Shown: in pieces, positions 5,221 to 44,887 of the stretch
Layout of the letters: the number at the start of each line of letters is the position of its first letter
Position numbering within the stretch: position 1 is the first letter of the stretch
IMG/VR virus record: IMGVR_UViG_3300044731_001110
Location: 1-64,000 of that record
Source of the DNA: a virus
DNA length: 64,000 bases
Strand: one strand, 5' to 3'
Made by a program: the position numbers and the translations under genes
The notes under the pieces: generated by a model
Told to the model about the DNA's origin: nothing
The model's input: only the letters and a program-made list of their open reading frames with translations
Databases searched by the model: none

Positions 5221-5233
5221 CTTTGATTTGTTG

Positions 5234-5240
5234 TATTTAT
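5234..5240 (+). promoter_or_regulatory. TATTTAT element upstream of the papain-fusion gene
   Basis: GTATTTATTAATAAAAAG lies immediately before the ATG at 5252, with 11 bp from the element to the start. It forms a divergent pair with 5214-5220. Confidence 0.5.
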
Positions 5241-5251
5241 TAATAAAAAGA

Positions 5252-11200: not shown

Positions 11201-11894
11201 AGGACTTGCATCAATACCGGCTCAAATTGTTTTAGCTGGTACAGGAGCAATTTCGACTCTTAGAACTGGTGCCTCAAACCTTGCTAGTGCACCTTGTGCT
11301 ACTGTTTTTGGTAATGCTAACAATGCAGCTGGAACGGTTTCTGGTATATTAGGTGGTATTTCAAGTTGTATCACAACTTTGGGTTATGGCTCAACAGTTG
11401 GTGGTGGTGCAACAAACACTATTACAAATTGTTATTCTAAAATTGGTGGTGGTCAATTTAACTGTGTTGCACAGCCTTGGTCAAGTATTCTTGGTGGTAA
11501 GAACAATGTTATTAATTCTTGTTCTAGTGCAATCGGTGGTGGTGAAAATAACGTAATTACAGCTAGTGTTCCTTGGTCAACAATAGCAGGTGGTTGTGGA
11601 AATAATATCGGTTCGTTAGCATCATATTCATCTGCCGTTGGTAGATTAAATACTGTTTGTCTAAGTGACACACACGTATTGGGATGTAATATAACAACAG
11701 ACCAATGTTTTACAACATTTGTAAATAACCTTACGGTTAATGGTGGTGGTATTCCTTCACCAAACACATGTTCAAGAGTTACATTAAAAAGTTTACCAAC
11801 CGAATCTGAAATTGGTTCATTACCAAGTGGTACAGTTTATCGATGTACAACAAGTGCGTCAGGTGGTGGTACTCAACTTTGGATTAAACTTTAA
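8223..11894 (+). CDS. Giant beta-roll tail fibre/adhesin 1
   Basis: A 1223-residue fibre. Two blocks of about 15-residue repeats of the SGGxxNTAxGxxST(V/I) type (about 10-160 and 510-720) recall the YadA-head beta-roll. Between and after them are repeats of TGGTYDxxTGxxTFxNxSGGTFxVTGF, about 30-40 residues each, which look like a beta-prism or spiral shaft. A DTVYVPxLNI segment closes each beta-roll block. A third beta-roll block precedes a C-terminal cap with LPSGTVYRC and LWIKL, a tip shared in outline with the fibres at 11962 and 31055. The leader is A-rich with no Shine-Dalgarno sequence. It is probably a trimeric receptor-binding or surface fibre. Confidence 0.85.
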   Translation: MSFVIISDLSGGTTSTVRCGQNNLAGAEYSTVSGGIKNTASGIYSNVSGGWKNTATNVGSTINGGTCNTATGRFSSILGGFKNRALDCKSVVVGGDNGLARSGSTITGGDNNTALGFNSFVGNGYFNKVTGNYSGIIGGSNNVLIGSNSAIIGGSLLTGTSSNTVYVPKLNIDLVGTTTSVNNLGIDVNGNVVTGNDVYLSAATLNNVGLLTLINSNGVTVSTSGFITYDNYVTGGTLDYSAGALTLDLRDGSNVIVPGLEDKYFTGVTFDTNSFDLTIGRNDGFTDTINLGVLATDLGLTGGTYDANTGVVTFINTSGQTVQVSGFTTGYTDTYLTGGTFTAGDLTLINTDGSTVLVTGFTSIDTYVTGGTYDNSTGSATFENNQGGSFVVTGFTTGFTDVYVTGMTFDTGNYELSIERNDGFIDSVNLGILSSDLTITGGTYDLNSGTATFTNNSGGTFSVTGFLTGYTDVYVTGGYYTPSTGTITIQQQNGNVNISGIDDAVMVQGGGSQSTVRKNNLNSATGQASTVSGGYNNSATQYGATVGGGSLNRAINYNDTVAGGFVNCATGAYSFVGGGYTNQATGYMSSIVGGWGNRTCNNQAVVGGGCLNTAFGLQSVVGGGHLNTANNSCSTVVGGYGNISNCFYTFIGGGFLNTANGYMATATGGRCNRAVGWYSTIGGGRENTASGLYSMILGGYQNVALGTRTAVIGGQNITGATNDTVYVPQLNIQTVGATSPVINLGLDSSGNVVTGTTPSVDYYLTGLTFDNGTFDLTASVNDGNDYTVNLGILSSDMTVTGGTYNPTTGDATFVTNSGNTFSVSGFLTGYTDVILTGATKVGETLTLTNSDGSIVTATGFTDYYVTGGTYDVGAGEIYLDRQNGTVTITGIFDTDTYLTGGTYNSNTGQLTLGQNNGQPDISVIGFQTQNTFVTGATYSNGILTLGRNDGGVVTASGFINNDFFVTGGTYNNANGLITLNRQNGVASVSGLPAGLASIPAQIVLAGTGAISTLRTGASNLASAPCATVFGNANNAAGTVSGILGGISSCITTLGYGSTVGGGATNTITNCYSKIGGGQFNCVAQPWSSILGGKNNVINSCSSAIGGGENNVITASVPWSTIAGGCGNNIGSLASYSSAVGRLNTVCLSDTHVLGCNITTDQCFTTFVNNLTVNGGGIPSPNTCSRVTLKSLPTESEIGSLPSGTVYRCTTSASGGGTQLWIKL

Positions 11895-11961: not shown

Positions 11962-14900
11962 ATGGCATATGTTATTATAAATGATCCAAACGGTGGGTCA
12001 ACCTCAACAGTAAGATGTGGTACTTTAAATTCTGCCGCATGTCCATATTCAGTTGTTACTGGTGGATATGCAAATAGTGCTAATTCTAGATTTGGGATTG
12101 TAACTGGTGGTTATTACAACACTACAACTGGTTGTATGGCAAATATTTCTGGTGGTAGACAAAATAAATCATCTGGCTTTTATTCAACAGTTTCTGGTGG
12201 TAGACAAAATACAAATAACTCAATTTTTGGTGTAATTGCCGGTGGTTACTTAAACACAAATATTGGTGGTAATTCATCTATTGGTGGTGGTGTTTTAAAT
12301 ACAACAACTGGATCTGTTGCAACAATTGCTGGTGGTTGTGATAATTTAAGTTTAGGTGATTGTGGGTCAATAGTTGGTGGTTATAGAAATTCGGTAGAAC
12401 AAATTTTTGGTACTGTTGGTGGTGGTTGTGAAAACTCAGCGTCTGGCGAATATTCATTTGTAGGTGGAGGAGCACAAAATACAGCTTCAAGTTATAACTC
12501 AACAATTTCCGGTGGTTTTTGTAACGTTGCAACTAATGCTTGTTCAACAATTGCCGGTGGAGCACAAAATAGTGCAATAGGTGATTTTTCATTTATCGGT
12601 GGTGGTAGATTCAATACTGCAACAGATACAACTTCAACCATAGCTGGGGGTAATTCAAATATTGCCGACTGTGAATTTACAATTGTTGGTGGTGGTGAAT
12701 ATAATACAGTAGATTCTGTTTATAGTGCAATTCTTGGTGGATTTTGTAATACATCAATTGCAAACTTTTCTTCTGTTGTTGGTGGATGTAATAACGCAAA
12801 TTTAGGTGCCGGATCATTTGTTGGTGGAGGGTGTTCAAATAGTGCAATATCAAACATATCGGTAATTGCCGGTGGTGCTAGAAATCAAAACTTTGGGACT
12901 TACGCATCAATTCTTGGTGGATTATGTAACAAAACATATTTTGACGGTACAGTAATAGCTGGAGGTCAATTTAATACTGCAATTGGTTTTAATAGTAATA
13001 TTGCTGGCGGTTATGGAAATACCGTCTCTGGATATTGTTCTGCAATTGTTGGTGGTAATCAAAACTTAGTATTAGGTGACTGCTCAATGATATTTTCAAA
13101 TAACTCAACTTTGGTTGCTGATAGAAGTGTTATTTTAGGAGGACAAAATATTTCTGGAACAACAGATGATACTGTTTATGTTCCTTATTTAAATATTCAA
13201 AATGTAACAACTGGTACATCGATTTCTAATTTGGGGATTGATTCTTCTGGTAATGTAATTTTTGGTCAAGATTTAACTGGTTCAACAGCACTTTATGAAG
13301 TTGGTTCTGGTACCGACTCAACACAAAGAATTGGTGTTAATTCTGATGCTAGTGGTAATTGCTCTGTAGTTTCTGGTGGTTTAAATAATACAAGTAGTGG
13401 TTATTATTCTTTTATTGGTGGTGGTGGTGGAAACACTGCGAGTGGTAATACCTCAACTATTGCCGGTGGTGGACAAAACACAACAATATGTAATTATTCT
13501 TTTATTGGTGGTGGATCAGGCAATACTACGGAAGGTGAAAATTCAACAATTGGTGGTGGAAATGTAAACTTAGCTATTGGTGACTATTCATTTATTGCTG
13601 GTGGAACTGCAAATACGGTTTCTGGTGATTATTCATCAATTATATCATCAAATTCAATATTAACAGCAAATTATAGTATTATATTAGGTGGTAATGGACT
13701 TACTGGTACGTGTGATAATCACGCATATGTTCCTGGTTTGAACATTAACTTTTTAAGTAGTGGAACTTCAATCAACACTTTAGGTATTGATGTTAATGGT
13801 TATGTTGTTGCTACTGGAACTGGAAATACAGCAAGTGGATGTTATTCTTTTGTTGGTGGTGGTAAAGATAATACCGCAAGTGGTAATTATTCTTTTGTTG
13901 GTGGTGGTAGAGAGAATAAAGCGAGTAGTGATTTTACAACAATTGGTGGTGGTGAATGTAATAAAGCTGAGTTTACAAACTCAACCGTAAGTGGAGGAAG
14001 AAATAATACAGTAAGTAGTGTTTACGCTACAATAGGCGGTGGTCAAAGTAATTTTATAGATGGACTTCAATCAGTCATAGGTGGTGGTGCTGGTAACACA
14101 TCAAGTGGTTATTACTCAACCGTAAGTGGTGGTGTTGGTAATGCGTCAAAAGGAGGTTGTTCAACCGTAAGTGGTGGTGTTGGTAACACAGCAAGTTGTA
14201 GATATTCAACCGTAAGTGGTGGTGTTGGTAACATGTCACGTAGCTGTGGTTCATCAATTGGTGGTGGTAAACAAAACGCTGCTGGTACGAGTGGAACTGT
14301 AAGTGCTTACTATGGATTAAGTACAAGTGGGTCAACAACAACAGGTATTTTTCCTGGGGTTTCTTCTTCATTTACAGATAGTGTTAATGGTTCTGGTTCT
14401 TTGTTTCAATTTGATTTAACAGCAGGTGTTGTTAACAGTATTAATATTACAAATGTAGGTCAAGATTATATTAATGGTGATTTTTTATTATTTGACGGAA
14501 CATTGTTTGGTGGGACTTCTGGAACTGACGATATATCATTCCTTGTTTTAACATCTGATTATACGTTTGCAACCGTAAGTGGTGGTCAATGTAATACATC
14601 AAGTAATTGTTGGTCAACCGTAAGTGGTGGATATCTTAACACATCAAGTGGATATAATTCAACCGTAAGTGGTGGTCGTCAAAACACGTCAAGTGGTTGT
14701 TGGTCATTTATTGGTGGAGGATCGGTTAACACAGCAAGTGGAGACTATTCAACTGTAAGTGGTGGTCGTCTTAATACATCAATAGGACCTGCTTCATTAA
14801 TTGGTGGTGGTATATGTAATACATCAATATGTAATGCTGTAACAATTGGTGGTGGTATATGTAATACAGTGTGTGGTGATTGTTCAACAATTAGTGGTGG

Positions 14901-15666
14901 TATAAACAATACGGTTAGTAGTAGTTACGGATTTATTGGTGGTGGTTTATATGGTGTTATAACACAATGTTTTGGAACTGTAAGCGGTGGATATAAAAAC
15001 ACCGTTCTAGGTTCTTGTGGAACTGTAAGTGGTGGTTATAGAAATACTGCTTGTTTTTTATCAACAGTAAGTGGTGGTGAGTGTAACACATCAAGTGATT
15101 ATGGATCAACTATTGGTGGTGGAAGTTTTAACACATCATCAGAATATTATGCCTTTGTTGGTGGTGGTCTTTGTAATACGTCATCAAACTATTATTCAAC
15201 AATTGTTGGTGGTCGTGAAAATACATCAAGTGGTTACAATTCATTTATTGGTGGAGGTCTTCAAAATAAATCATTAAATCACTGTACAACTATTAGTGGT
15301 GGATTCCAAAATACAACACTTAATATTGGTGCCACAGTTGGTGGTGGTGGTCGTAATACGGCAGAAGGTATTTGTAGTACTGTAAGTGGTGGCTATCGCA
15401 ATACTGTAAGCGGTGATACCTCAACAATTGCTGGCGGCCTTTGTAATACAATTACAACATCATTCTCAAGTATTCTTGGTTGTAACAACAAAGTAGTTCA
15501 CACGTCAGCACATATTATTGGTGATAGTATAACATCAACAGCTAATTGTATGACTTTTGTAAATCAATTATCTGTTATGAATTTACAAGACGGTTCGGTT
15601 GGTTTACCATCTAAAGCTCTATATTATTGTTCAACAGACTCTAATAGAGTTTATTTTGTACCATAA
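11962..15666 (+). CDS. Giant beta-roll tail fibre/adhesin 2
   Basis: A 1234-residue fibre composed almost wholly of 15-residue repeats (GGxxNTxxGxxSTIxGG). They are interrupted by two DTVYVPxLNI / DNHAYVPGLNI joints near residues 400 and 600, by an LYEVGSGTDSTQR joint also present in fibre 3, and by one inserted beta module (about residues 775-870). Many repeats carry Cys. The C terminus (MTFVNQLSVM, then GLPSKALYYC and YFVP) matches the tip layout of fibres 1 and 3. A cluster of near-identical 45-bp DNA repeats lies at 14116-14250. It is expected to be a rigid trimeric beta-roll exposed on the virion and is directly followed by the glycosylation cluster. Confidence 0.85.
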   Translation: MAYVIINDPNGGSTSTVRCGTLNSAACPYSVVTGGYANSANSRFGIVTGGYYNTTTGCMANISGGRQNKSSGFYSTVSGGRQNTNNSIFGVIAGGYLNTNIGGNSSIGGGVLNTTTGSVATIAGGCDNLSLGDCGSIVGGYRNSVEQIFGTVGGGCENSASGEYSFVGGGAQNTASSYNSTISGGFCNVATNACSTIAGGAQNSAIGDFSFIGGGRFNTATDTTSTIAGGNSNIADCEFTIVGGGEYNTVDSVYSAILGGFCNTSIANFSSVVGGCNNANLGAGSFVGGGCSNSAISNISVIAGGARNQNFGTYASILGGLCNKTYFDGTVIAGGQFNTAIGFNSNIAGGYGNTVSGYCSAIVGGNQNLVLGDCSMIFSNNSTLVADRSVILGGQNISGTTDDTVYVPYLNIQNVTTGTSISNLGIDSSGNVIFGQDLTGSTALYEVGSGTDSTQRIGVNSDASGNCSVVSGGLNNTSSGYYSFIGGGGGNTASGNTSTIAGGGQNTTICNYSFIGGGSGNTTEGENSTIGGGNVNLAIGDYSFIAGGTANTVSGDYSSIISSNSILTANYSIILGGNGLTGTCDNHAYVPGLNINFLSSGTSINTLGIDVNGYVVATGTGNTASGCYSFVGGGKDNTASGNYSFVGGGRENKASSDFTTIGGGECNKAEFTNSTVSGGRNNTVSSVYATIGGGQSNFIDGLQSVIGGGAGNTSSGYYSTVSGGVGNASKGGCSTVSGGVGNTASCRYSTVSGGVGNMSRSCGSSIGGGKQNAAGTSGTVSAYYGLSTSGSTTTGIFPGVSSSFTDSVNGSGSLFQFDLTAGVVNSINITNVGQDYINGDFLLFDGTLFGGTSGTDDISFLVLTSDYTFATVSGGQCNTSSNCWSTVSGGYLNTSSGYNSTVSGGRQNTSSGCWSFIGGGSVNTASGDYSTVSGGRLNTSIGPASLIGGGICNTSICNAVTIGGGICNTVCGDCSTISGGINNTVSSSYGFIGGGLYGVITQCFGTVSGGYKNTVLGSCGTVSGGYRNTACFLSTVSGGECNTSSDYGSTIGGGSFNTSSEYYAFVGGGLCNTSSNYYSTIVGGRENTSSGYNSFIGGGLQNKSLNHCTTISGGFQNTTLNIGATVGGGGRNTAEGICSTVSGGYRNTVSGDTSTIAGGLCNTITTSFSSILGCNNKVVHTSAHIIGDSITSTANCMTFVNQLSVMNLQDGSVGLPSKALYYCSTDSNRVYFVP
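14116..14250 (+). repeat. 45-bp tandem DNA repeats within fibre 2
   Basis: TCAACCGTAAGTGGTGGTG starts at 14116, 14161 and 14206, an exact 45-bp period matching the 15-residue protein repeat. The near-identity suggests recent duplication or gene conversion. Confidence 0.85.
14284..14570 (+). other. Inserted beta module in fibre 2
   Basis: About 95 residues that break the 15-residue repeat pattern, ending in a GxxYxxGDxLxFxGxxFGG-like segment followed by DD and a hydrophobic strand. The same module type occurs four times in fibre 3. Confidence 0.7.
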
Positions 15667-18305: not shown

Positions 18306-19124
18306 ATGGTACAAAAAATCTTTTTTCAAAGCTCACTACCAAGAGCTGGTTCAACATTACTTCAAAACGTAATGGGACAAAACCCAGAATTTTATGTAAC
18401 ACCAACATCTGGGGTATTAGAATTGGTGTATGCCGCTAGAGCAAATTACACATCATCACCGGAATTTAAAGCACAAAATCCAAATTTAATGAGAAACGGA
18501 TTTTTAAATTTTTGTAAAGAAGGTATCTTTGGGTACTACAATGGAATAACAGATAAACCTTACGTTTTAGATAAAAGTAGAGGTTGGGGTGTTCATTATG
18601 GATTTTTAAATTCTTTTTATCCAGAACCAAAAATTATTTGTATGGTTAGGGATTTAAGAGGAATTTTTGCATCAATGGAGAAAAACTTTAGAAAGAATCA
18701 AGATAAAGATTCTGGTCTTGTTAATCATGCACAAATGCAAGGAACAACAACAGAAAAAAGAATTGATATCTGGGCTCAATCACAACCGGTTGGTATGGCA
18801 ATTGAGAGATTATATCAAATACATAAAGAAGGCATTAATCAAAAGATGTTATTTGTAAAATTTGAGGATTTTACATCGAATCCAAAAAAAGAAATGGAAA
18901 GAATTTACCAATACTTGGGTCTTCCTTATTTTGAACACGATTTTAATAATGTAGAACAAATTACACAAGAGGATGATTCTGTATATGGTATATATGGTGA
19001 CCACACAATAAAAAGTAAAATAGAACCAATTAAACCAGATTATAAAGAAGTTTTAGGTGTTAACGCATCTAACTGGGTTAAATCTAATTATCAATGGTTT
19101 TATGATCAATTCGGTTATTTTTGA
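18306..19124 (+). CDS. PAPS-dependent sulfotransferase
   Basis: A 272-residue sulfotransferase. The 5'-phosphosulfate loop is at residues 11-19 (LPRAGSTLL), and the 3'-phosphate-binding segment is IICMVRDLRGIFASMEKNF near residue 105. The C-terminal MLFVKFEDFTSNPKKEMERIYQYLGL helix-strand is typical of Sulfotransfer_1/3 families. It would move sulfate from PAPS to a hydroxyl or amine on a sugar, or to a tyrosine. The APS kinase gene begins 4 bp later, so donor synthesis and use are co-encoded. Neighbouring glycosyltransferases suggest a sulfated glycan. Confidence 0.88.
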   Translation: MVQKIFFQSSLPRAGSTLLQNVMGQNPEFYVTPTSGVLELVYAARANYTSSPEFKAQNPNLMRNGFLNFCKEGIFGYYNGITDKPYVLDKSRGWGVHYGFLNSFYPEPKIICMVRDLRGIFASMEKNFRKNQDKDSGLVNHAQMQGTTTEKRIDIWAQSQPVGMAIERLYQIHKEGINQKMLFVKFEDFTSNPKKEMERIYQYLGLPYFEHDFNNVEQITQEDDSVYGIYGDHTIKSKIEPIKPDYKEVLGVNASNWVKSNYQWFYDQFGYF

Positions 19125-19127
19125 TTT

Positions 19128-19583
19128 ATGAAAGAGAAAAAAATATATTGGTTTACCGGTCAACCAGGAGCAGGAAAAACGGTTTTAGCTTTAATGTTAA
19201 AAACAATTTTAGAAAAAGAATATGGAAATAATGTTTTTCATATTGATGGTGATGAATTAAGAAGACTATTTAACAATCAAAAATACGGTAGAGAAGGTCG
19301 TGAAGAAAATATTAAACGAGCTCAAGATATTGCCAAGTTTCTTTTGGTACAAGGTTATGATGTTGTTGTTAGTCTTGTAGCACCTTATAAAGAATTAAGA
19401 GAAAGTTTTAAATATGATTTACAAAATTTATTAGTTGAATTTTATGTTCATACAACAGATGTTAGGGGTAGAGAACATTTTCATACTGATGAATATGAAT
19501 CACCAACAGAAAACTTCATTGACATTGATACGACAAATATTGATCCGCAAGAATCATTAAATCAAATTATTAAATATATATGA
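19128..19583 (+). CDS. cysC: Adenylylsulfate (APS) kinase
   Basis: A 151-residue P-loop kinase, shorter than typical CysC (about 200). The Walker A is GQPGAGKT (residues 11-18). The APS-kinase segments FHIDGDELRRLF and GREGREENIKRAQDIAKFL are clear, while the later lid/APS region (RGREHFHTDEYESPTEN) is shortened and diverged. It phosphorylates APS to PAPS, the donor for the sulfotransferase just upstream. It overlaps the next gene by ATGA. The shortened C terminus leaves some room for another small-molecule kinase, but the sulfotransferase neighbour supports CysC. Confidence 0.85.
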   Translation: MKEKKIYWFTGQPGAGKTVLALMLKTILEKEYGNNVFHIDGDELRRLFNNQKYGREGREENIKRAQDIAKFLLVQGYDVVVSLVAPYKELRESFKYDLQNLLVEFYVHTTDVRGREHFHTDEYESPTENFIDIDTTNIDPQESLNQIIKYI

Positions 19584-20044
19584 CTTGGTCTGTAAAAAAT
19601 CACGGTGGATTCCCAACATCAAACACCGATAAAAAATATGCAATATTTATAGGTAGATTCCAACCCTATCATTTAGGACATATCGAAATGGTACAACAAA
19701 AATTAAACGAAGGTATACCGGCATTAGTTATGGTTAGGGACATTGAACCTGACGAGAAAAATCCTTTTACAACAGAACAAACAGTATCAATGATTGAAAA
19801 ATATCATAAATCAAAAGGTGATGATGTAAAAGTTGTTATTATTCCAGATATAGAGTCTGTTAATTACGGTCGTGGTGTTGGTTATGAAATAAATGAGTTT
19901 ACACCACCAAAAGACATTGGTGGTATTTCTGCAACCGGAATTAGAAATTGTATTAAAAATAATGATGAATATTGGAAAAAATTGGTTGATGAGTCAATAC
20001 AAGAAGATGTTGTAAACTATTTAAATTATGAAAACACAAAGTAA
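19580..20044 (+). CDS. NadM-like nucleotidyltransferase (HxGH family)
   Basis: A 154-residue cytidylyltransferase-like protein with IGRFQPYHLGH (H31, H34), NPFTTEQTVSMI and a closing SATGIRNCI (ISxTxIR-type motif). The pattern is closest to archaeal-type NMN adenylyltransferases (NadM). Such enzymes transfer an NMP from ATP or CTP. It overlaps cysC by 4 bp and the DUF2061 gene by 17 bp, so it belongs to the sulfation operon. Possible roles are NAD synthesis, making an activated precursor, or supplying APS in place of ATP sulfurylase. I see no ATP-sulfurylase-specific residues, so the last is speculative. Confidence 0.75.
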   Translation: MTWSVKNHGGFPTSNTDKKYAIFIGRFQPYHLGHIEMVQQKLNEGIPALVMVRDIEPDEKNPFTTEQTVSMIEKYHKSKGDDVKVVIIPDIESVNYGRGVGYEINEFTPPKDIGGISATGIRNCIKNNDEYWKKLVDESIQEDVVNYLNYENTK

Positions 20045-31054: not shown

Positions 31055-34000
31055 ATGGCAACTTTAACAGGAAAAACAATTGGTGAATTAACACTTCTAA
31101 CTGGAATTACAAATAATACATTATTTCCGGTAGAATATAATTTAACAACATATCATATTCCATACTCCGGTATTAGTAATTTCCTAACCGGAGGTACCTA
31201 TTCAAATGGTTCAATAACATTTACAAATAATCAAGGAAGTAGTTTTGTTGTATCTGGTTTATACACTGGATCAACAGATTTTTATGTTACTGGTGGTACA
31301 TACTCAAATGGTACAATTACTTTAGACAGACAAAATGGTTCTGTATCAATTACTGGTTTATATACTGGTTCTACCGATGTATTTGTTACTGGTGGTACCT
31401 ATGATAACACAACTGGTACATTAACTCTAGAAGATAATAACGGAACGTCATTTGGTGTAACTGGATTTACAACTGGTGGTACTGGGACTTCTTTATATGA
31501 AGTTGGTTCTGGAACTGACTCAACACAAAGGGTTGGTGTTAACTCGGCAGCATTAGGTAATATTTCAATTATTGCTGGAGGTTCTGGAAATACCGCAAGT
31601 GGTTATGTTTCAGTTATTAGTGGTGGTATACTTAACACATCGTTAGGTGACTGTTCTGTTATTGGTGGTGGTTCTTGTAATACATCCGGAATTAATGGTA
31701 TTGTTGATTCGATATATAACCAAACTTTTACCGGTAATATTCCATCTAGTGGTTTTTATGGTTCATTTTCACCATCATCAACACTTTCTGGTCTTGGTAC
31801 TGGTTCAACTTTTTCTTTTTACTTTTCATCTCCAACAACTTTAAGTAATGTTTATATTGGTAATCAAGGTAGTGGATATGTTAGTGGTGACACTTTAACA
31901 TTTAACGGAACAATATTTGGTGGTGCTGTACCACAAGATAATGTTACACTACAAATCACAACAACAAATGGCGGTTCAAACATTGTTGTTGGTGGTGGTT
32001 GTAGAAATACAGCAAATAGAAACTCATCAACAATCAGTGGTGGGATTTTAAATAAAAGTAACGCAAACTGCTCAACAATCGGTGGCGGTTGTTGTAATAT
32101 TATCACAAAAGACTCTTGTTACTCAACAATTAGTGGTGGTAGAAGAAATACTGGATACGGTTGTTACGGAGTAATTAGTGGTGGTCGTTGTAACGAAGCT
32201 GGTGCTTACGGTACAATAACTGGAACATATAATCAAGTATATACTGGTGGTACCTTAAACGGAACTTTTTCTGGTGGGTACGGCCCAACATCAACAACAT
32301 CTGTTTATGGTGATGATGCCTTATTTGGTTTTGTCTTTAATTCTGGAACTTTATCTAGTGTTAAAATTGTTAATGGTGGTAATCTATATAGTGGAAATGA
32401 TACTTTATTTTTTAATGGTAATATATTTCCTGGTGGAACAACTGGTATTGATGATGTAACATTTCAAGTTAGTACATCAATAAATAACTATGCAACAGTA
32501 GCTGGTGGATGTTGTAATACTGCATCTGGTGAATACTCAACAATTAGTGGTGGGTATGAAAATACAGTATCCGGTGATTATTCAACTATTGGTGGGGGTT
32601 CTTGTAACACAATTAATACTAATTCGTGCTATTCAACTATTGGTGGTGGTGACGATAATACAATCCTTCAAGGTGATGTTGCAACAATTAGTGGTGGTGA
32701 AAATAATACGATAAGTGGTGATTATTCATTTATTGGCGGTGGTTATGATAATATAATAACAAGTTCTTGTGCTACAATTAGTGGTGGATTTAACAATACC
32801 GCTAGTGGTTACAATTCATTTATTGGTGGTGGAGAAAATAACGTTTCTGGGCGAAATAATTTTGTTGACGGAATAAATAGTTCTGTATATACTGGTGGTA
32901 CTTTGAATAATACTTACGGTGGTATCTCACCAACATCAACATCAAGTGGTACTGGGTCTGGAGCATTATTTAGTTTTGATTTTGTTCTTGGTGTATTACA
33001 AACCATCCAAATACAAAACGGAGGTTCTGGTTATTCTAATGGTGAAACACTATATTTTAACGGTGGATTATTTGGTGGTGGTTCATCTCCTTTAGATGAT
33101 GTTTGGTTAAACATCAATACAAACAATAGTACACATACAACAATAAGTGGTGGTCGTCAAAATACATCAAGTAATTTTTATTCAACAGTAAGTGGTGGTA
33201 GACAAAATACAGCAAGTGGAAATTCTTCAACCGTAAGTGGTGGTCTTGAAAATACAGCAAGTTGTTTTGGATCAACAGTAAGTGGTGGTGTCCTTAACAC
33301 ATCAAGTAACAATTATTCAACAATAAGTGGTGGATTTAGAAACACATCAAGTGGTTATAATTCAACCGTAAGTGGTGGTTATCGTAACACATCAAGTAAT
33401 TATTTTTCAACCGTAAGTGGTGGTCGTAATAATGTTTCCGAAAACCAATTTGATACAATTGGTGGTGGGTGTTGTAATACAACAATATTAAGTGGTGGCG
33501 CAACGGGTGCTGCAACAATAAGTGGTGGTGAGTGTAACACATCAGGAAATTACTACACATTTAATGGTGGTGGTTGTAGAAACGTTACACTAGGTGAATT
33601 TTCAACAATAGGAGGTGGATTAGGAAATACAAATTATGGTGGTTTTGTAACCTCAATTAGTTTTAATTCTGGTAGTTTATCTGGAATCACAGATAACACA
33701 TATACAGTTAATCCAACTAGTTTAGTTGGTTATGGTTCAAACTTACAATTTAGTTTTGATGTTAGTGGTGGTGTTGTTAGTAACATTATAATCATAAATC
33801 CAGGTGTAAGATATGAACAAGGAGAACAAGTTTTAGTTTCTGGTAATACTATTGGTGGTTCATCACCAGCAAATGATTTAACCTTTAATTTAGATGATGT
33901 TGTAACTTCAGAATTTTCTTTTATTGGTGGTGGTGGGTGTAACACCTCAATAGGTTTTGCATCATCAATTCTTGGTGGGCTTTCTAATACTGCAAGTGGT

Positions 34001-36004
34001 GATTACTCAACAGTTGGTGGTGGTGGATCATCATCTGGATATAATGGAAATTTAGCATTAGGTGATTATTCTGTAATTGGTGGTGGTAATCAAAACACAT
34101 CTCAAAATGATTTTGCGGCAGTTTTTGCTGGTTCTGGTAACACTTCGTCAGGTTATTATAGCATTATTGGTGGTGGAATAAGAAATACAAATACAAACGA
34201 TCTTGGTTTTCTTGGTGGTGGTTTTTGTAATACATCAAGTGGTTATGATGGAGTACTTGGTGGTGGTGGATGTAATACATTAAATAATTTACTTGGTGGT
34301 GTAATTGCCGGTGGTAGATTAAATACTGTTGTTGGTATATTCACAAACACAATTGGGGGTGGTTTTGGAAATAACGTATCTACATTTGGTGCTGCAACAA
34401 TTAGCGGTGGATATTTTAATACAACAAATAGTGACTACTCAACAATAGGTGGTGGTTCATCAAATACTATAGATTCAATAACAACACAATCTGGCTATTA
34501 TGTTCTTGGGTCAACAATAGGTGGGGGTTCTTTTAATACAATTTCATCATATAGTTCATATTACGATTCTAATGGTAACACAATTGCCGGAGGAAATGGT
34601 AATACAACAGTATCATCTTATTATAATGGACAAACAATTGGTGGAGGTAGTAGGAACATTACATTTAATGATTATACAACAGTTAGTGGTGGTTTTAACA
34701 ATACATCAAGTGGTTGTTTTTCAACCGTAAGTGGTGGTCGTCAAAATACAGCAAGTTGTAATTATTCAAATGTAAGTGGTGGTCGTCAAAATACATCAAG
34801 TGGATATCTTTCAACCGTAAGTGGTGGTCGTTTAAACATATCAAGTGATAATTCTTCAACCGTAAGTGGTGGTTATTGTAACACATCAAGTAATTTGTAT
34901 TCAACAGTAAGTGGGGGACGTAGAAACACATCAAGTGGTCAATATTCAACAATAAGTGGTGGGTACCGTAACCTATCATTAAATGATGGATCATTTATAG
35001 GTGGTGGTTTTTGTAACACATCAAGTGGTCAATATTCAACAATAAGTGGTGGTTATTATAACACCGCTAACGGTAATAATTCATTAGTTTCAGGAGGATT
35101 TTCAAATATAATACTTACATCAACAATTTCTAATTATATTAATTACGGATCGGTAATTGCTGGTGGTAATAATAACTTTATTACTTGTATGGACACAAAT
35201 AGCGCATATTGTATATATGGTCAAACTATTGGTGGTGGTTCTTTTAATACAATATCTAATTATTATGTGGGTGGAACTAATAATATAAACTCTAGCACTA
35301 TTGCGGGTGGTAATTGTAATTTGATTAATAGTGGTATTGGTGGTAATGTTATTAGTGGAGGTATTAATAACACATCAAGTGGTCAATATTCAACCGTAAG
35401 TGGTGGTTTTTGTAACACGTCAAGTGGTTCTAATTCAACCGTAAGTGGTGGTGGTGAAAACACATCAAGTGGTGGTGATTCAACTATTGGAGGTGGTCGT
35501 AATAACATAACATTGTGTAATTTCGCAACTGTAAGTGGTGGTTATCGTAACACATCAAATAGTTGTTGTGGTTCAGTTGGAGGAGGTTCTTGGAACACAA
35601 TTAGTGGTGCTAGATCCGTTATTGCTGGAGGTGGGGGTTCTTGTGCCGCATTAGGAAATAGAGCAATATGTGATTTTACCTCAGTACTCGGTGGTTCCGC
35701 AAATTTAGCTTGTTGTTCTTATGCTACTGTCGGTGGTGGTTTTTGTAACACATCAATTGGGACTCGTTCAACCGTAAGTGGTGGATATCGTAACACAGTA
35801 ATAAATGGTTGTTCTGCAATACTTGGGGGTCAATGTAATACAACCCAACACGATTGTTCATTTATAGTTGGTAGTGGAATATGTAGTACTGCCGCAAACA
35901 CAACTCACGTAAACTGTCTACACTTTAGTAATATACCAACAAGTTCAGCAGGTCTTGCACCAGGAACAGTATGGAATAATGGTGGTGTACTAAACATAGC
36001 ATAA
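31055..36004 (+). CDS. Giant beta-roll tail fibre/adhesin 3 (1649 aa)
   Basis: The largest fibre of the adhesin region. The N-terminal 60 residues are adaptor-like (LTGKTIGELTLLTG), followed by three TGGTYSNG shaft repeats and the LYEVGSGTDSTQR joint shared with fibre 2. From about residue 165 to the C terminus it consists of 15-residue repeats (STVSGGRQNTSSGYN type). They are broken by four inserted beta modules of about 80-95 residues. Many repeats contain Cys (SGGCCNT, CSTIG). The tip (SNIPTSSAGLAPGTVW and GGVLNIA) has the usual phage-fibre end. Near-identical 45-bp repeats at 33.1-33.4, 34.7-35.1 and 35.4 kb imply recent expansion. Confidence 0.87.
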   Translation: MATLTGKTIGELTLLTGITNNTLFPVEYNLTTYHIPYSGISNFLTGGTYSNGSITFTNNQGSSFVVSGLYTGSTDFYVTGGTYSNGTITLDRQNGSVSITGLYTGSTDVFVTGGTYDNTTGTLTLEDNNGTSFGVTGFTTGGTGTSLYEVGSGTDSTQRVGVNSAALGNISIIAGGSGNTASGYVSVISGGILNTSLGDCSVIGGGSCNTSGINGIVDSIYNQTFTGNIPSSGFYGSFSPSSTLSGLGTGSTFSFYFSSPTTLSNVYIGNQGSGYVSGDTLTFNGTIFGGAVPQDNVTLQITTTNGGSNIVVGGGCRNTANRNSSTISGGILNKSNANCSTIGGGCCNIITKDSCYSTISGGRRNTGYGCYGVISGGRCNEAGAYGTITGTYNQVYTGGTLNGTFSGGYGPTSTTSVYGDDALFGFVFNSGTLSSVKIVNGGNLYSGNDTLFFNGNIFPGGTTGIDDVTFQVSTSINNYATVAGGCCNTASGEYSTISGGYENTVSGDYSTIGGGSCNTINTNSCYSTIGGGDDNTILQGDVATISGGENNTISGDYSFIGGGYDNIITSSCATISGGFNNTASGYNSFIGGGENNVSGRNNFVDGINSSVYTGGTLNNTYGGISPTSTSSGTGSGALFSFDFVLGVLQTIQIQNGGSGYSNGETLYFNGGLFGGGSSPLDDVWLNINTNNSTHTTISGGRQNTSSNFYSTVSGGRQNTASGNSSTVSGGLENTASCFGSTVSGGVLNTSSNNYSTISGGFRNTSSGYNSTVSGGYRNTSSNYFSTVSGGRNNVSENQFDTIGGGCCNTTILSGGATGAATISGGECNTSGNYYTFNGGGCRNVTLGEFSTIGGGLGNTNYGGFVTSISFNSGSLSGITDNTYTVNPTSLVGYGSNLQFSFDVSGGVVSNIIIINPGVRYEQGEQVLVSGNTIGGSSPANDLTFNLDDVVTSEFSFIGGGGCNTSIGFASSILGGLSNTASGDYSTVGGGGSSSGYNGNLALGDYSVIGGGNQNTSQNDFAAVFAGSGNTSSGYYSIIGGGIRNTNTNDLGFLGGGFCNTSSGYDGVLGGGGCNTLNNLLGGVIAGGRLNTVVGIFTNTIGGGFGNNVSTFGAATISGGYFNTTNSDYSTIGGGSSNTIDSITTQSGYYVLGSTIGGGSFNTISSYSSYYDSNGNTIAGGNGNTTVSSYYNGQTIGGGSRNITFNDYTTVSGGFNNTSSGCFSTVSGGRQNTASCNYSNVSGGRQNTSSGYLSTVSGGRLNISSDNSSTVSGGYCNTSSNLYSTVSGGRRNTSSGQYSTISGGYRNLSLNDGSFIGGGFCNTSSGQYSTISGGYYNTANGNNSLVSGGFSNIILTSTISNYINYGSVIAGGNNNFITCMDTNSAYCIYGQTIGGGSFNTISNYYVGGTNNINSSTIAGGNCNLINSGIGGNVISGGINNTSSGQYSTVSGGFCNTSSGSNSTVSGGGENTSSGGDSTIGGGRNNITLCNFATVSGGYRNTSNSCCGSVGGGSWNTISGARSVIAGGGGSCAALGNRAICDFTSVLGGSANLACCSYATVGGGFCNTSIGTRSTVSGGYRNTVINGCSAILGGQCNTTQHDCSFIVGSGICSTAANTTHVNCLHFSNIPTSSAGLAPGTVWNNGGVLNIA
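31687..31985 (+). other. Inserted beta module 1 of fibre 3
   Basis: Interrupts the 15-residue repeats with DSIYNQTFTG and later GSGYVSGDTLTFNGTIFGG, then a DNVTLQI strand. Confidence 0.7.
32200..32490 (+). other. Inserted beta module 2 of fibre 3
   Basis: Same layout as module 1: TGTYNQVYTGGTLNGTF, later NGNIFPGGTTGIDDVTFQV. Confidence 0.7.
32855..33130 (+). other. Inserted beta module 3 of fibre 3
   Basis: DGINSSVYTGGTLNNTYGG, then GSGYSNGETLYFNGGLFGGG and LDDVWLNI. Confidence 0.7.
33140..33440 (+). repeat. 45-bp tandem repeats, block 1 of fibre 3
   Basis: Units of the form TCAACCGTAAGTGGTGGT plus 27 variable bases recur every 45 bp (for example 33182 and 33227). They are far more alike than repeats elsewhere in the gene. 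Confidence 0.85.
33635..33905 (+). other. Inserted beta module 4 of fibre 3
   Basis: The most diverged copy: FVTSISFNSGSLSG, then GVRYEQGEQVLVSGNTIGG and NDLTFNL. Confidence 0.65.
34675..35065 (+). repeat. 45-bp tandem repeats, block 2 of fibre 3
   Basis: Nine or so consecutive 45-bp units with near-identical cores (TCAACCGTAAGTGGTGGTCG), each encoding one STVSGGxxNTSSGxx turn. Confidence 0.85.
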
Positions 36005-40505: not shown

Positions 40506-40871
40506 CATTTTAATACCGTCGGATGAGACGATATACCAATTACCCTCAACAAATTTAAACTTAACACAAGCTCCTTTTTCTAAAAGGAGCTCATCCCACT
40601 CTTCATCTATTAACCCAACATCAGACTTAACTAAAGTTTTTGTAAGAGATTTTACTGTAATTTTTTTTACAATAGTAGAATTTAAAGTAACTTCTGAATA
40701 ATCAACGTCTTTAACAATTAAGAATGTCTCATCATTAGTTGTATAAACTGGTTCGGAAATTACCTTATGAATTTCTTTTGGTTTCTCAATGGTAATCTTT
40801 GGTTCAACAACGGCTTGTGTTTGATATCGAACTATATTTTTTCTCGGTGTTATATTTTCTACCCTTATCAT
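40500..40871 (-). CDS. Hypothetical protein downstream of the neck protein
   Basis: A 123-residue protein that overlaps the gp13-like gene by 4 bp (ATGA). The N terminus is extended and charged (NITPRKNIVRYQTQAVVEPK). The C-terminal half looks like a small beta domain: FLIVKDVDYSEVTLNSTIVK, then GACVKFKFVEGNWYIVSSDG, which resembles the repeated beta barrels of phage head-decoration and fibre proteins. I do not recognise the family. Likely structural by context. Confidence 0.6.
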   Translation of the reverse strand: MIRVENITPRKNIVRYQTQAVVEPKITIEKPKEIHKVISEPVYTTNDETFLIVKDVDYSEVTLNSTIVKKITVKSLTKTLVKSDVGLIDEEWDELLLEKGACVKFKFVEGNWYIVSSDGIKMS

Positions 40872-41998
40872 ATTACATAAATTTGTCTAGGCATAGCCCT
40901 AAACTTTAATTGTTTATTTAAGTTTTCTGCTAATAAAGCTTCCCTTTCCATAACCTTTTCTGGTTTTAACCTAGTGAGTCTACCTTCGGCACCAATAAGC
41001 TCGTCAATTAGTTTTGTCTTCTCATCTTTAGCTTCAGTTGCAAGTGATGTGTAATCCATTGTAAGATCACCACCTTCACCAGTTTTTAAATTACCACTAA
41101 ATTTACCACGAACTCTTGATAGTGTTTCTTTACAATATGCAATAAACCACCTTCTAACCCAAACTTGTGCTGGATTATTTAAATCTAACCAACTCATCTT
41201 ATCAAATGGAACATCTGATGGTAATTTTATAATATCCGGATTATTTGCTAAACATTTATCTCTATCTCCAGGACCAACATCATAGTACCAATACCAAACT
41301 TTACCTTTTGTTAAACTTGCATTACCCCAGTCAAATTTACCACCTGGTGTGTTCATTAAATGAATTGCTTTTTTACCATCAGGTAGTGCGGTAATTCTAT
41401 ATGTTAAATCACCAACAATAATTCTTCTTTGGATATTAATTTCTTGCATTCTAAGTAACATATCAAAAGCCGGCATCATAAAATAACTACCACCCATACT
41501 ACCCATTTGAGCAAGTCCACCTCCACCACCTAGACCACCACCTAGTCCTAAAGCACCAAAAGACCAAGGGTCAAACATAGTATTATTTAAAGTTGGTGGT
41601 GTAAACCAAAGTAATTCATTAATTTCTCTATTTGCTGGAATTTCATATATTTGTTGGTTTGGTACCAACTGAATATAGTCTTTTTTTAATTCCCATTCAC
41701 CACCAGCTTGTAAACCTACAATTTTTGAATAGGCATAAGTATATCTTGTTTCATAATCTAAACTTCTTGTTGTAAAAGCTTTTGTTAATGATTGAGTATC
41801 TAAATTTAGATTATTAAGTGCTGTCCATTGAGATTCAATTAACCAATCTTGTACATATTGTGAATACTCGTCAATTGAAAATTCAAGTAATGTGTCCATT
41901 TGTTCGTCTTCTAATTCGACAGAACGTAATGGTGCACCAAGTAAATGTCTTACTTTTGTGTATAATTTACTTCTTTCTGGTTCGTCAATAATTGCCAT
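40868..41998 (-). CDS. 13: Neck protein, T4 gp13-like
   Basis: A 376-residue protein. Its N terminus follows the gp13/neck-protein pattern found in T4-like phages: YTKVRHLLGAPLRSVELEDEQ, then MDTLLEFSIDEYSQY. The centre has a Gly-rich loop (GALGLGGGLGGGGGL). The C-terminal half contains WYWYYDVGPGD and MDYTSLATEAKDEKTKLIDE. gp13 joins gp14 at the head-tail neck and closes the packaged head. Its gp14- and gp15-like partners are on the opposite strand about 5-7 kb away. A TATTTAT element precedes it. Confidence 0.75.
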   Translation of the reverse strand: MAIIDEPERSKLYTKVRHLLGAPLRSVELEDEQMDTLLEFSIDEYSQYVQDWLIESQWTALNNLNLDTQSLTKAFTTRSLDYETRYTYAYSKIVGLQAGGEWELKKDYIQLVPNQQIYEIPANREINELLWFTPPTLNNTMFDPWSFGALGLGGGLGGGGGLAQMGSMGGSYFMMPAFDMLLRMQEINIQRRIIVGDLTYRITALPDGKKAIHLMNTPGGKFDWGNASLTKGKVWYWYYDVGPGDRDKCLANNPDIIKLPSDVPFDKMSWLDLNNPAQVWVRRWFIAYCKETLSRVRGKFSGNLKTGEGGDLTMDYTSLATEAKDEKTKLIDELIGAEGRLTRLKPEKVMEREALLAENLNKQLKFRAMPRQIYVI

Positions 41999-42018: not shown

Positions 42019-44112
42019 TCAAGATTTTGGTATTACTAATCTTTTAAGGTCAAATTTAAATCTTTCATTTTTTGATAAATCCCTAATAATATCTTGTGGT
42101 ATGTTGTCACCAAGTCTTGGTACACCATATCTTTCACCTAACGAATTAAATAAACTAACAACCTCTTTAGTTTTTTCATCACCAACTAAAAATTCTCTAT
42201 ACTGGTCTACTGTAACATTTGGGAATTTGATAGCACCGACCATTGTTTTATCCATTTTCAATACTTTTGTTGATAGTGATATTGTTTGTGCTTCTCTAGT
42301 TCTTCCAGATTTTAACAAGTTTGGTGTTTTAATAAGTTCAATAATTCTATTTTTATCATAATAATATAAATCAACACTCATATTTTGTTGGTTTGGTACA
42401 CCAACAAGTAAACCTGTAATATCTGTTAGTAAAAAATTTAATAAATCTTCAGCTTGATTTTTTAAATCTTGATTCTCACTTTTAAGTAGTAATTCAAGAA
42501 AATTTGGGTACTGACTCAACTCTATTAATTTATTTTTATTTTCTTGAGAACCATTATATCTTGATACAAATTCACCAACAGATTTTCTAATACTTTTAAG
42601 TGAAATTCTTTCACCAGTATTTCTAATAATCTTACATGAAAGTTTATCACCATTTTTTGTTAATACGTCAAATGGTGAAGACAAACTAGTTGCTAAAGTC
42701 CCATCAAGAAAACCAGTAACCATACCTTCAAAATCAAAACCCCTTGTTTTACTTTTAACAAATCTTTGGAAATAATTATTAAATCTATACCTTGATCTTT
42801 CAGAAACATTATTTAAATCAAGTGACATTAACTCTTGTAAAGTTCTATTAAAATTTATGGTACCTCTCTCGATTTCAGCACTTATAATATTATTTATAGC
42901 TTCAGCCGCGGCTTCAGCATCTAAAGGAATAAGACGAATTTTTTGTAATTCTCTAGACATAATCTTTTTAATGTCCGGATCAAGTTCCTCATTCTCAACA
43001 ATCAATCTTGCTATTGATTCTGATAATTTTTTTCTAGATTTTGAAACAAACAAATCATTTACAAAATCCCAATTAATATGATTCCAAAAATTTTTAATAT
43101 ATTCGTCTCTTTTATTTCTGTATCTTAAATAATAAGCATGTTCCCACAAATCAAGACCAAGTAATGGATAGCCACCATCTTTAATAATATTCATTAAAGG
43201 GTTATCTTGATTTGGTGTTGACATTATTTTTAATCTATTTGTTTTTGTTAACACTAACCAAACCCAACCAGACCCAAATCTTTCTTTGGCAACCTCATTA
43301 AATTCGTCTTTCATTTTTTTAATGTTGCCATATTGTTTTGTAATCTTTTCAAAAATTTCACCTTTTGGTATTTGTTTTTTTGGTGATAACATTTTCCAAA
43401 ATAAGGCATGATTAAAAGCTCCACCGGCATTATTTCTAACACTTGTATCAAATTTACTTATTGATTTAATAATATCTTCAAGGTCTTCATATTTTAAAGT
43501 TGTATTACTTAGCGCCTTGTTTAATTTTTTAACATATCCTTTATAATGTTTGTTATAATGAATATTCATAGTTTCAGTACCAACAAATTTGTTTAGTGCT
43601 GAATATGCGTATGGAAGTTTTTCAATACCAATTTTTTTCATTTCAAGAAGTAGATTGTTTTTAATCTCTTCTTTTTCGGTTAATAATATTTGTTCGTTTA
43701 ATAATTTAATTTTTTTATTAAAACTTTCATACATCATCTCTTCTTTATCTGGATTGTCTTTTTCAAATTGTTTAATCAAAGAACCAGCTTTTGCATTTGC
43801 CTCATCTTCTAGTGGTCCACCTATATCTTGTCCTGGTTTTTTTCCTTGTAAATTTATTTGTTTTTCGTGAATCCATTCGTGTGCCAATGTTCTGGCAATA
43901 TCACGATTCATTCTTCCTTTTGTAAGAATTTTAAGTTCTGAATCTTTTGTTCTACTTCCAGAGGACATTGTACCATATCTCTCACCGGTAAAAATAATTG
44001 TGATATCATCTTTTAATGGATGTTTTTTTTGTAAAAACTTAATAAAATTATTCATAAGTTCTCTGTCTTTTTCAGACATATCACATTTGATGTGTTTAAC
44101 TTTTACTTTCAT
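42019..44112 (-). CDS. Metallopeptidase / Mn-type superoxide dismutase fusion protein
   Basis: A 697-residue three-part protein. Residues 1-120 contain a zincin motif, LAHEWIHEKQ (H78, E79, H82), with GPLEDEANA (E102 or E104) as a likely third ligand. Residues 155-355 are a complete Fe/Mn superoxide dismutase domain with metal ligands H185 (NIHYNKHYKGYV), H235 (AGGAFNHALFW), D321 and H325 (LDLWEHAYYLRY). They also have FGSGWVWLV and NQDNPLM. The Gly-Gly before the second His and the Gln in NQD resemble Mn-type enzymes. Residues 365-697 are an unknown domain with FDFEGMVTGFLDG, SPFDVL and LSCKII, which could be PD-(D/E)XK-like. Its context suggests a virion or internal protein. Confidence 0.85.
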   Translation of the reverse strand: MKVKVKHIKCDMSEKDRELMNNFIKFLQKKHPLKDDITIIFTGERYGTMSSGSRTKDSELKILTKGRMNRDIARTLAHEWIHEKQINLQGKKPGQDIGGPLEDEANAKAGSLIKQFEKDNPDKEEMMYESFNKKIKLLNEQILLTEKEEIKNNLLLEMKKIGIEKLPYAYSALNKFVGTETMNIHYNKHYKGYVKKLNKALSNTTLKYEDLEDIIKSISKFDTSVRNNAGGAFNHALFWKMLSPKKQIPKGEIFEKITKQYGNIKKMKDEFNEVAKERFGSGWVWLVLTKTNRLKIMSTPNQDNPLMNIIKDGGYPLLGLDLWEHAYYLRYRNKRDEYIKNFWNHINWDFVNDLFVSKSRKKLSESIARLIVENEELDPDIKKIMSRELQKIRLIPLDAEAAAEAINNIISAEIERGTINFNRTLQELMSLDLNNVSERSRYRFNNYFQRFVKSKTRGFDFEGMVTGFLDGTLATSLSSPFDVLTKNGDKLSCKIIRNTGERISLKSIRKSVGEFVSRYNGSQENKNKLIELSQYPNFLELLLKSENQDLKNQAEDLLNFLLTDITGLLVGVPNQQNMSVDLYYYDKNRIIELIKTPNLLKSGRTREAQTISLSTKVLKMDKTMVGAIKFPNVTVDQYREFLVGDEKTKEVVSLFNSLGERYGVPRLGDNIPQDIIRDLSKNERFKFDLKRLVIPKS

Positions 44113-44117
44113 CTTTT

Positions 44118-44124
44118 ATAAATA
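44118..44124 (-). promoter_or_regulatory. TATTTAT element upstream of the SOD fusion gene
   Basis: AGTATTTATAAAAG, read on the minus strand, lies 5 bp before the ATG at 44112. Candidate promoter giving a very short leader. Confidence 0.45.
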
Positions 44125-44129
44125 CTTTA

Positions 44130-44182: not shown

Positions 44183-44530
44183 TTAAACACCCTGTGTTAC
44201 TTTTGTAAATATACAAGTAGCAATAGCTAATGCTTTATCTTTTGCTCCGGCAGCAACTAATTCTTGACCACATTTTTTATATCTCTGTTCTGGATCTGGC
44301 ATTGGCGGTAATTTCTGATTTGTTACAATTTCAGAAAATAAACTAATACAAGCCGGTATTTTTGTTAAGTCAGTAATTTCAACGTTATTGTTAATACATT
44401 CTTTAACTGTTTCTGGTATTGATTCTACATTTTCGTTTAATTTCATTTTTGAATTTAAATATCTTTGTTCGGAAAGAATATTTAACATTTCCATCTTTCT
44501 TATTTTAGTTTGACTTCTACTATTTAACAT
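44183..44530 (-). CDS. Hypothetical protein, small helical
   Basis: A 115-residue protein of unknown family. A basic, helical N terminus (MLNSRSQTKIRKMEMLNILS) contains ILSEQRYLNSKMKLNENVES, similar in style to short leader peptides on other proteins of this strand. The C-terminal part has paired cysteines (KKCGQELVAAGAKDKALAIA; TCIF) and is probably a small helical bundle. The gene 24 bp upstream encodes a similar-sized protein with the same CxxxG/Cys layout (ECKKDGFNPSLCLSKAM), so they may be distant paralogues. Confidence 0.6.
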   Translation of the reverse strand: MLNSRSQTKIRKMEMLNILSEQRYLNSKMKLNENVESIPETVKECINNNVEITDLTKIPACISLFSEIVTNQKLPPMPDPEQRYKKCGQELVAAGAKDKALAIATCIFTKVTQGV

Positions 44531-44554: not shown

Positions 44555-44887
44555 TTAATATCTTCTATAACTTCTTTTATATTTTCTAGACTCTGTCATA
44601 GATGGTAAATCCATAGGAGTTGTTGGAATTTCTGTTTTTGTAAGCCCGGCAACTTCTTGGTACTTTGGAAAAAATTCTTTAACAAAAACATTAAATGGTA
44701 CAGTCTCCATAGCTTTTGAAAGACATAAACTAGGGTTAAAACCGTCTTTTTTACATTCAGTTATTGATTGTACACCTTCTATGTTTGATAATTTATCCAT
44801 AGCTGTAAAATCCATATTTTCTTCTTCTTTAATTATTCTTGAAATTAAACGACTAAGTTCTCTTTCGGATAGTTTAATTCTTTTCAT
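44555..44887 (-). CDS. Hypothetical protein, small helical with basic tail
   Basis: A 110-residue protein of unknown family. The N terminus is an amphipathic helix (IKLSERELSRLISRIIKEEE), a pattern often seen at the start of phage internal or prohead-cleaved proteins. A middle segment has two cysteines (SITECKKDGFNPSLCLSKAM), and the tail is basic (ESRKYKRSYRRY). A TATTTAT element lies 15 bp upstream. It may be an internal capsid protein (inference). Confidence 0.6.
   Translation of the reverse strand: MKRIKLSERELSRLISRIIKEEENMDFTAMDKLSNIEGVQSITECKKDGFNPSLCLSKAMETVPFNVFVKEFFPKYQEVAGLTKTEIPTTPMDLPSMTESRKYKRSYRRY

Follow-up and report, generated by a model that had tools for sequence, protein, structure and literature searches.

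A putative polyvalent protein of T4-like phages with a superoxide dismutase at its centre and T4-type protease motifs at its seams

The closest named class for the protein described here is that of the phage polyvalent proteins (Iyer et al. 2017, PMC5512222), whose genes lie near virion genes and whose injection is thought likely; self-processing by their metallopeptidase domains has been proposed, as for DdrB of phage P1, and superoxide is not mentioned in the text of that paper. The T4 internal proteins and Alt (PMC9026906, PMC3012670) are basic cargo with (L/I)xE sites, and the internal proteins have an N-terminal targeting peptide and hold one protein each. The T4 prohead protease, gp21, cleaves C-terminal to the Glu of L/I-X-E (PMC9026906). 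Virion packaging of a superoxide dismutase (SOD) has a precedent in Chlorella virus PBCV-1, in which the Cu/Zn enzyme A245R is encoded by a late gene and packaged, and cells infected with PBCV-1 contained less superoxide than cells infected with a virus that lacks the gene (PMC7019647). SOD is also listed for giant-virus virions in a review (PMC9405923).

We analysed a stretch of 64,000 nucleotides, here called the window (IMG/VR record IMGVR_UViG_3300044731_001110, positions 1 to 64,000, the record being a 69-kb fragment). At 42019-44112 it encodes a polyprotein in a single open frame on the minus strand, with an ATG start and 697 aa. By analogy with the systems above, we rate this polyprotein as a polyvalent protein built around an SOD, with T4-type protease sites where its modules join. 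Like the described polyvalent proteins, it joins unrelated enzyme domains in one chain, a predicted zincin included, is encoded in a neighbourhood of virion genes and is predicted to be injected; it differs from them in its putative prohead-protease sites and in modules that appear to be swapped around a conserved SOD. With the T4 internal proteins and Alt it shares (L/I)xE sites and basic cargo; the T4-type protease and gp23 known from T4 occur in its relatives, and many proteins in the genome are tagged. It has, however, several cargo domains per chain and internal sites, and we do not file it as a T4 internal protein because its zincin-first form has no N-terminal targeting peptide and begins directly with a folded domain. 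A245R, likewise virus-encoded, differs in having an unrelated SOD fold and other metals, in being free-standing and in belonging to a eukaryotic virus. Fe/Mn SODs (PDB 6gsc, 5a9g) share with the polyprotein SOD its sequence family, ligands, Mn-type Gln and dimer-interface residues, but they are free proteins of about 200 aa, whereas this one is strongly basic and sits in a 697-aa chain. Beyond the preliminary description of the locus, the analysis adds a modular family, a nuclease-like fold predicted for the C-domain and alternative C-terminal modules; what is new here is that the chain belongs, as one of its forms, to a large modular family of polyproteins from freshwater T4-like phages, in which at least three different C-terminal modules can follow the SOD.

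Domain composition of the polyprotein

The chain holds at least two biochemically unrelated domains, and its main features are as follows.

42019..44112, minus strand: whole polyprotein gene, 697 aa, encoding zincin, Mn-type SOD and restriction-endonuclease-like domain in this order, joined by linkers 1 and 2
43726..44112, minus strand: N-domain, aa 1-129, zincin-like metallopeptidase by invariant columns and predicted fold
43867-43881, minus strand: HExxH motif, H78-E79-x-x-H82, aa 78-82
43042..43641, minus strand: Mn-type superoxide dismutase, aa 158-357, every metal ligand present
42022..42981, minus strand: C-domain, aa 378-697, predicted restriction-endonuclease-like fold with invariant E462, D482 and S492-x-K494

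That an SOD domain lies inside a metallopeptidase fusion, as had been noticed from the window alone, was borne out: zincin, SOD and C-domain share one frame in 31 distinct complete ORFs. Because so many distinct relatives keep the same architecture in one frame, an assembly chimera or frameshift is ruled out as the origin of the fusion.

The SOD is recognized by Pfam within the 697-aa chain above the gathering score (Sod_Fe_N, E=8e-23; Sod_Fe_C, E=6.5e-39) and matches solved MnSODs at E=1e-61. Alignment with these structures places the metal ligands at H185, H235, D321 and H325, the gateway residues at H189 and Y193 and the Mn-type Gln at position 302 of the NQD motif (301-303), all as first described. 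The dimer-interface residues E324 and Y328 are likewise present, and the Mn-type signature consists of AGG ahead of the NH ligand motif plus the Gln in NQD. Ligand and gateway columns are invariant across the aligned SOD members, dN/dS of about 0.1 in five pairs indicates purifying selection, and mean column identity is highest in the SOD (87%, against 71% in the N-domain and 73% in the C-domain). Since the residues are intact, the columns invariant and dN/dS low, we expect a working enzyme. These data also bear on whether the SOD fold is instead a structural part, for example a scaffolding or dimerising component in the core of the prohead, with only incidental activity. The neighbouring head genes would suit such a role, but we consider it highly improbable because the active site is invariant and the SOD is the most conserved domain of the chain.

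The phage SODs are basic (pI 9.47 ± 0.10, n=83), and 14 bacterial SODs average 5.8. The nearest bacterial SOD found, from a Fluviicola genome (49% identity), is equally basic (pI 9.38), so the argument from charge for packing with DNA is weak, and the basic charge may have been inherited.

For the N-domain, the claim of an HExxH peptidase held up, with the motif at aa 78-82 in a predicted zincin fold. In the model (pLDDT 84), HExxH lies in helix 69-89, and E102 and E104, both invariant in the alignment, lie in the following helix (100-119); the zincins of polyvalent proteins similarly have HExxH in one helix and a Glu in the next. The closest folds were YbeY (Z 10.0, rmsd 2.6, 106 aligned), M1 aminopeptidases (Z about 9) and Wss1 (Z 8.3), with PprI below them (Z 6.5). 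The ImmA/IrrE (M78) profile PF06114 gave a weak match (E=0.09), and only for a cyanophage relative of the domain. The model and the alignment thus support assignment of the N-domain as a zincin metallopeptidase. Cyanophage-type relatives of the domain are free-standing, without an SOD (MW015081 164797-165195 in S-SRM01, and L209-L288), and the one in S-SRM01 is placed among replication genes.

The C-terminal part had been described as an unknown domain of 330 residues; its position was right, and it now has a predicted restriction-endonuclease-like fold. Nuclease folds top both structure-match lists for the model (pLDDT 85), and almost every one of the top rows belongs to this single fold. Foldseek probabilities are 0.98-1.00 in the first eight rows, yet E is only about 0.01. 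In the fold comparison, the N-domains of Eco15I and NhoI (Z 8.6) and HinP1I (7.9) are followed by PvuII, DpnI, EcoRV and Hjc; these scores are modest and come from a predicted model, with the top match at rmsd 5.3 over 141 aligned residues and Z up to 8.6. The C-domain would share the fold of these PD-(D/E)xK domains, and its invariant E462, D482 and K494 occur in the expected order, but Ser492 replaces the usual acid of (D/E)xK. Ser in place of D/E exists in NgoMIV/Cfr10I-type enzymes. This assignment is based on the predicted fold; sequence searches gave no nuclease match, either from the C-domain profile in PDB or from the window protein in Pfam, and no sequence relative was found among known nucleases. 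We regard the C-domain as predicted to be restriction-endonuclease-like, with a possible variant PD-(D/E)xK site. A distant relative of the domain (27.5% identity) is encoded on a 635-kb uncultured phage genome (LR745206.1 68360-69013).

Module exchange and junction motifs

A first scan of IMG/VR found 19 relatives with the order N-SOD-C (61-100% identity, mostly complete). Separate scans with single domains found at least 460 relatives of the N-domain and at least 564 of the SOD module, and the 80 best matches from each set were retrieved; these counts of viral contigs are minimum values and include repeated, nearly identical contigs. The distinct complete ORFs comprised, besides the 31 with N-SOD-C, 30 with N-SOD alone, which end where linker 2 begins, and 27 with N-SOD followed by another C-terminal part. 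The latter fall into two sequence clusters (C2, 17 members; C3, 10 members), and some C2-type members have one or two extra X modules ahead of C2. There were also two SOD-C2-C forms, eight of C alone and 54 of N alone, nearly all of the last from the scan with a cyanophage-type relative. C2 and C3 had weak Pfam and PHROG matches only, with no meaningful match in the PDB profile search or PADLOC, and the sole basis for calling them nucleases would be two motifs spotted by eye (QDFDV..QVK and FEVKK). Within single pairs of sequences, dN and dS change abruptly from one domain to the next; between the window and relative L002, for example, dN is 0.39 in the N-domain and 0.04 in the C-domain. These sequence comparisons indicate that modules have been swapped at the linkers and recombine as units.

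The linkers contain the following candidate cleavage sites.

43642..43725, minus strand: linker 1, aa 130-157, two invariant (L/I)xE candidate prohead-protease sites
43693-43701, minus strand: candidate site in linker 1, LNE140 followed by Q
43642-43650, minus strand: candidate site in linker 1, LLE157 followed by M
42982..43041, minus strand: linker 2, aa 358-377, low model confidence, (L/I)xE candidate sites
43018-43026, minus strand: candidate site in linker 2, LSE365 followed by S
42994-43002, minus strand: candidate site in linker 2, IVE373 followed by N

In linker 1, E140 and E157 are invariant and L or I stands at the -2 positions (138 and 155) in 36 of 36 aligned sequences, while most other positions vary. 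In linker 1 the motif has a density of 0.108 per residue and in linker 2 of 0.061; the corresponding values are 0.0149 for the proteome of a 257-kb relative and 0.0067 for the SOD domains. Shuffles that keep composition gave 78 sites where 174 were observed in linker 1, and 24 where 72 were observed in linker 2; none of 2000 trials reached the observed totals. All 129 linkers with a defined start, covering all ten junction types, contain (L/I)xE (an additional leader lacks a defined start), and several of these junction types occur in one architecture only. The motif is short and the sequences are related, so that the counts are not independent; column-wise conservation and agreement across junction types for this reason outweigh the raw totals. 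Cutting at E157 would give an SOD beginning MKKIGIEKLPY, which resembles free SODs. Linker 2 is modelled with pLDDT 35-57 and linker 1 as a long helix with about 64-84. Leaders with (L/I)xE are found only in the SOD-first form and most C-only forms.

The preliminary description had the embedded peptidase perhaps releasing the SOD. On one such reading the chain would be packaged and cut by its own zincin, before packaging or after injection, which would free the SOD and the nuclease-like domain. The predicted fold of the N-domain, its HExxH and the helix with invariant E102 and E104 match those described for the polyvalent-protein metallopeptidases for which self-processing has been proposed, as in P1 DdrB (PMC5512222). 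The conserved linker residues instead fit a prohead-protease site, (L/I)xE, and members without a zincin (SOD-C2-C and C alone) retain the junction sites; for both reasons the zincin is not the best candidate for release of the SOD. The free-standing relative in cyanophages, moreover, has nothing to release. We consider self-processing quite unlikely and the releasing role proposed for the peptidase probably wrong, as the linkers fit a T4-type prohead-protease site.

Genomic setting and a possible route into the virion

The polyprotein gene lies near late and virion genes.

40868..41998, minus strand: next gene downstream, head-tail adaptor/neck protein (phrog_211, E=3e-9)
44117..44125, minus strand: promoter-like box GTATTTATA, immediately 5' of the start codon
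44138..44161, minus strand: intrinsic-terminator-like hairpin AAAACCCACA..TGTGGGTTTT with a T run, parting the gene from its upstream neighbour
44183..44530, minus strand: small gene directly upstream, MLNSRSQTKIRKMEMLNILSEQRYLNSKMKLNE...
44555..44887, minus strand: small upstream gene with tag-like N-terminus MKRIKLSERELSRLISRIIKEE, a segment found on many proteins of these phages

The neck gene also adjoins the polyprotein gene in the relatives inspected, and the order small genes, polyprotein, head-tail adaptor recurs in most of them. Many have small tagged genes upstream of the polyprotein, and in most the homologue of the small gene at 44183..44530 starts (S)NSRSQTKIRK. TATTTAT lies in the 45 nt that precede 36% of the genes in the window and 32% of those in the 257-kb relative, as opposed to 4-5% in shuffles; in that relative the box stands at the capsid gene, the SOD polyprotein and the neck gene. 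It is commoner at tag-bearing genes (12/18 versus 71/254, Fisher p=0.001). Matches in a sigma-70 promoter scan were no commoner than in shuffles. We infer that TATTTAT is a candidate late promoter.

Two types of shared N-terminal segment stand ahead of unrelated protein bodies: MKKxIRLTESDLxRIVKRVINE followed by N or G, and MKKxIITExExSRILGxH..ISEQ. They were seen on many proteins (window 44555-44887; L024, L025, L026, L028, L030 [G001]) and look like capsid-targeting or cleavable propeptides; the string LTESDL did not occur in the literature searched. The idea that linker 2 is an internal copy of the first type was not supported (local alignment versus shuffles, z 0.7; only 12% of linkers reach p<0.05). 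One tag-bearing protein (L027:14484-15479, minus strand) has a peptidoglycan-binding domain and a GH19 chitinase domain and is a candidate head-borne or late lysin. Another, of 152 aa (G001:39737-40192, at the L024/L025 border), has a GLGTDE motif recalling annexin repeats, with no Pfam match for the part tested.

Among seven relative records searched, two have a gp21-type protease (PF03420, E about 1e-23) and four a gp23-type capsid protein (1e-64), whose propeptide ends in LINE followed by ATS or AAS at the predicted maturation site, the same motif as in the linkers. Neither gene is in the window's own 69-kb record, which is a fragment. Of the cultured phages, Flavobacterium phage immuto has one of the best-matching capsid proteins (40.7% identity); it has no annotated SOD and no match to the polyprotein. 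The capsid match and the origin of the best bacterial SOD in a Fluviicola genome suggest hosts in the Bacteroidota.

We think it somewhat more probable than the reverse that the protein is a polyvalent one that is packaged into the prohead, is cleaved there into its modules and is carried by the virion. The polyprotein would be produced late, from a gene adjoining the neck gene, and would go into the prohead core, where the gp21-type protease would cleave the linkers after the Glu of (L/I)xE. Cleavage would free basic modules, namely the zincin, the Mn-type SOD starting near M158 and the restriction-endonuclease-like protein, and these would remain in the head alongside the DNA and probably be ejected with it, so that the SOD would be active from the first minute of infection. 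A head-borne SOD could also shield the packaged genome in water exposed to sunlight. We infer every step of this scheme, from late expression through packaging, cleavage and ejection to enzyme activity and any benefit. The earlier interpretation is partly supported: indirect evidence for a virion-carried enzyme comes from the late-type gene context, the T4-type protease sites at the junctions, the basic domains and the capsid-type promoter-like box; virion proteomics for an SOD-bearing relative was not found in the literature searched.

Phage SODs are usually classed as auxiliary metabolic genes. The SOD could be an unpackaged metabolic enzyme that is made in the infected cell, works at full length and was fused by chance to two other domains. 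Its intact residues and low dN/dS would suit that role, and stand-alone SOD genes have been annotated in other phages, for example in Vibrio phage 2.275.O, where the gene lies next to translation and topoisomerase genes. Alternative C-modules, forms that end at the start of linker 2 and motifs at the seams point instead to separable cargo, and the neck-gene neighbourhood and capsid-type box suggest late expression, when help to host metabolism would be less useful. We regard an auxiliary role as rather unlikely, though less so than self-processing.

Packaging and cleavage in the prohead may be part of a broader pattern, to which we give slightly less than an even chance: freshwater T4-like phages would carry a plug-in cargo of interchangeable modules (SOD, zincin and at least three further ones, at least one of them nuclease-like) that enters the head as a single chain, is cleaved inside it and reaches the host together with the genome. 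If so, an SOD from the phage particle would act ahead of any phage gene expression. If the SOD is head cargo, it would be of benefit during the first minutes of infection or while the particle is free, the interchangeable modules would amount to an inventory of the proteins that such phages deliver, and the linkers would be a natural way to load a T4-type capsid with several proteins from a single gene.

Elsewhere in the window, a sulfotransferase (PF13469, 2e-20), an adenylylsulfate kinase (PF01583, 1e-18) and a cytidylyltransferase-like protein are encoded in a row at 18306-20044, close to tail-fibre-like genes, and form a possible phage-encoded sulfation module. Very long proteins with short GG-N-TASG-type repeats and interspersed homologous stretches (8223-11894, 11962-15666 and 31055-36004) appear tail-fibre or adhesin like; the one checked in Pfam gave no match. 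At 5228-8143, a 971-aa protein has a papain-family peptidase domain at its C-terminus (PF00112, 6e-5) and is probably tail-associated.
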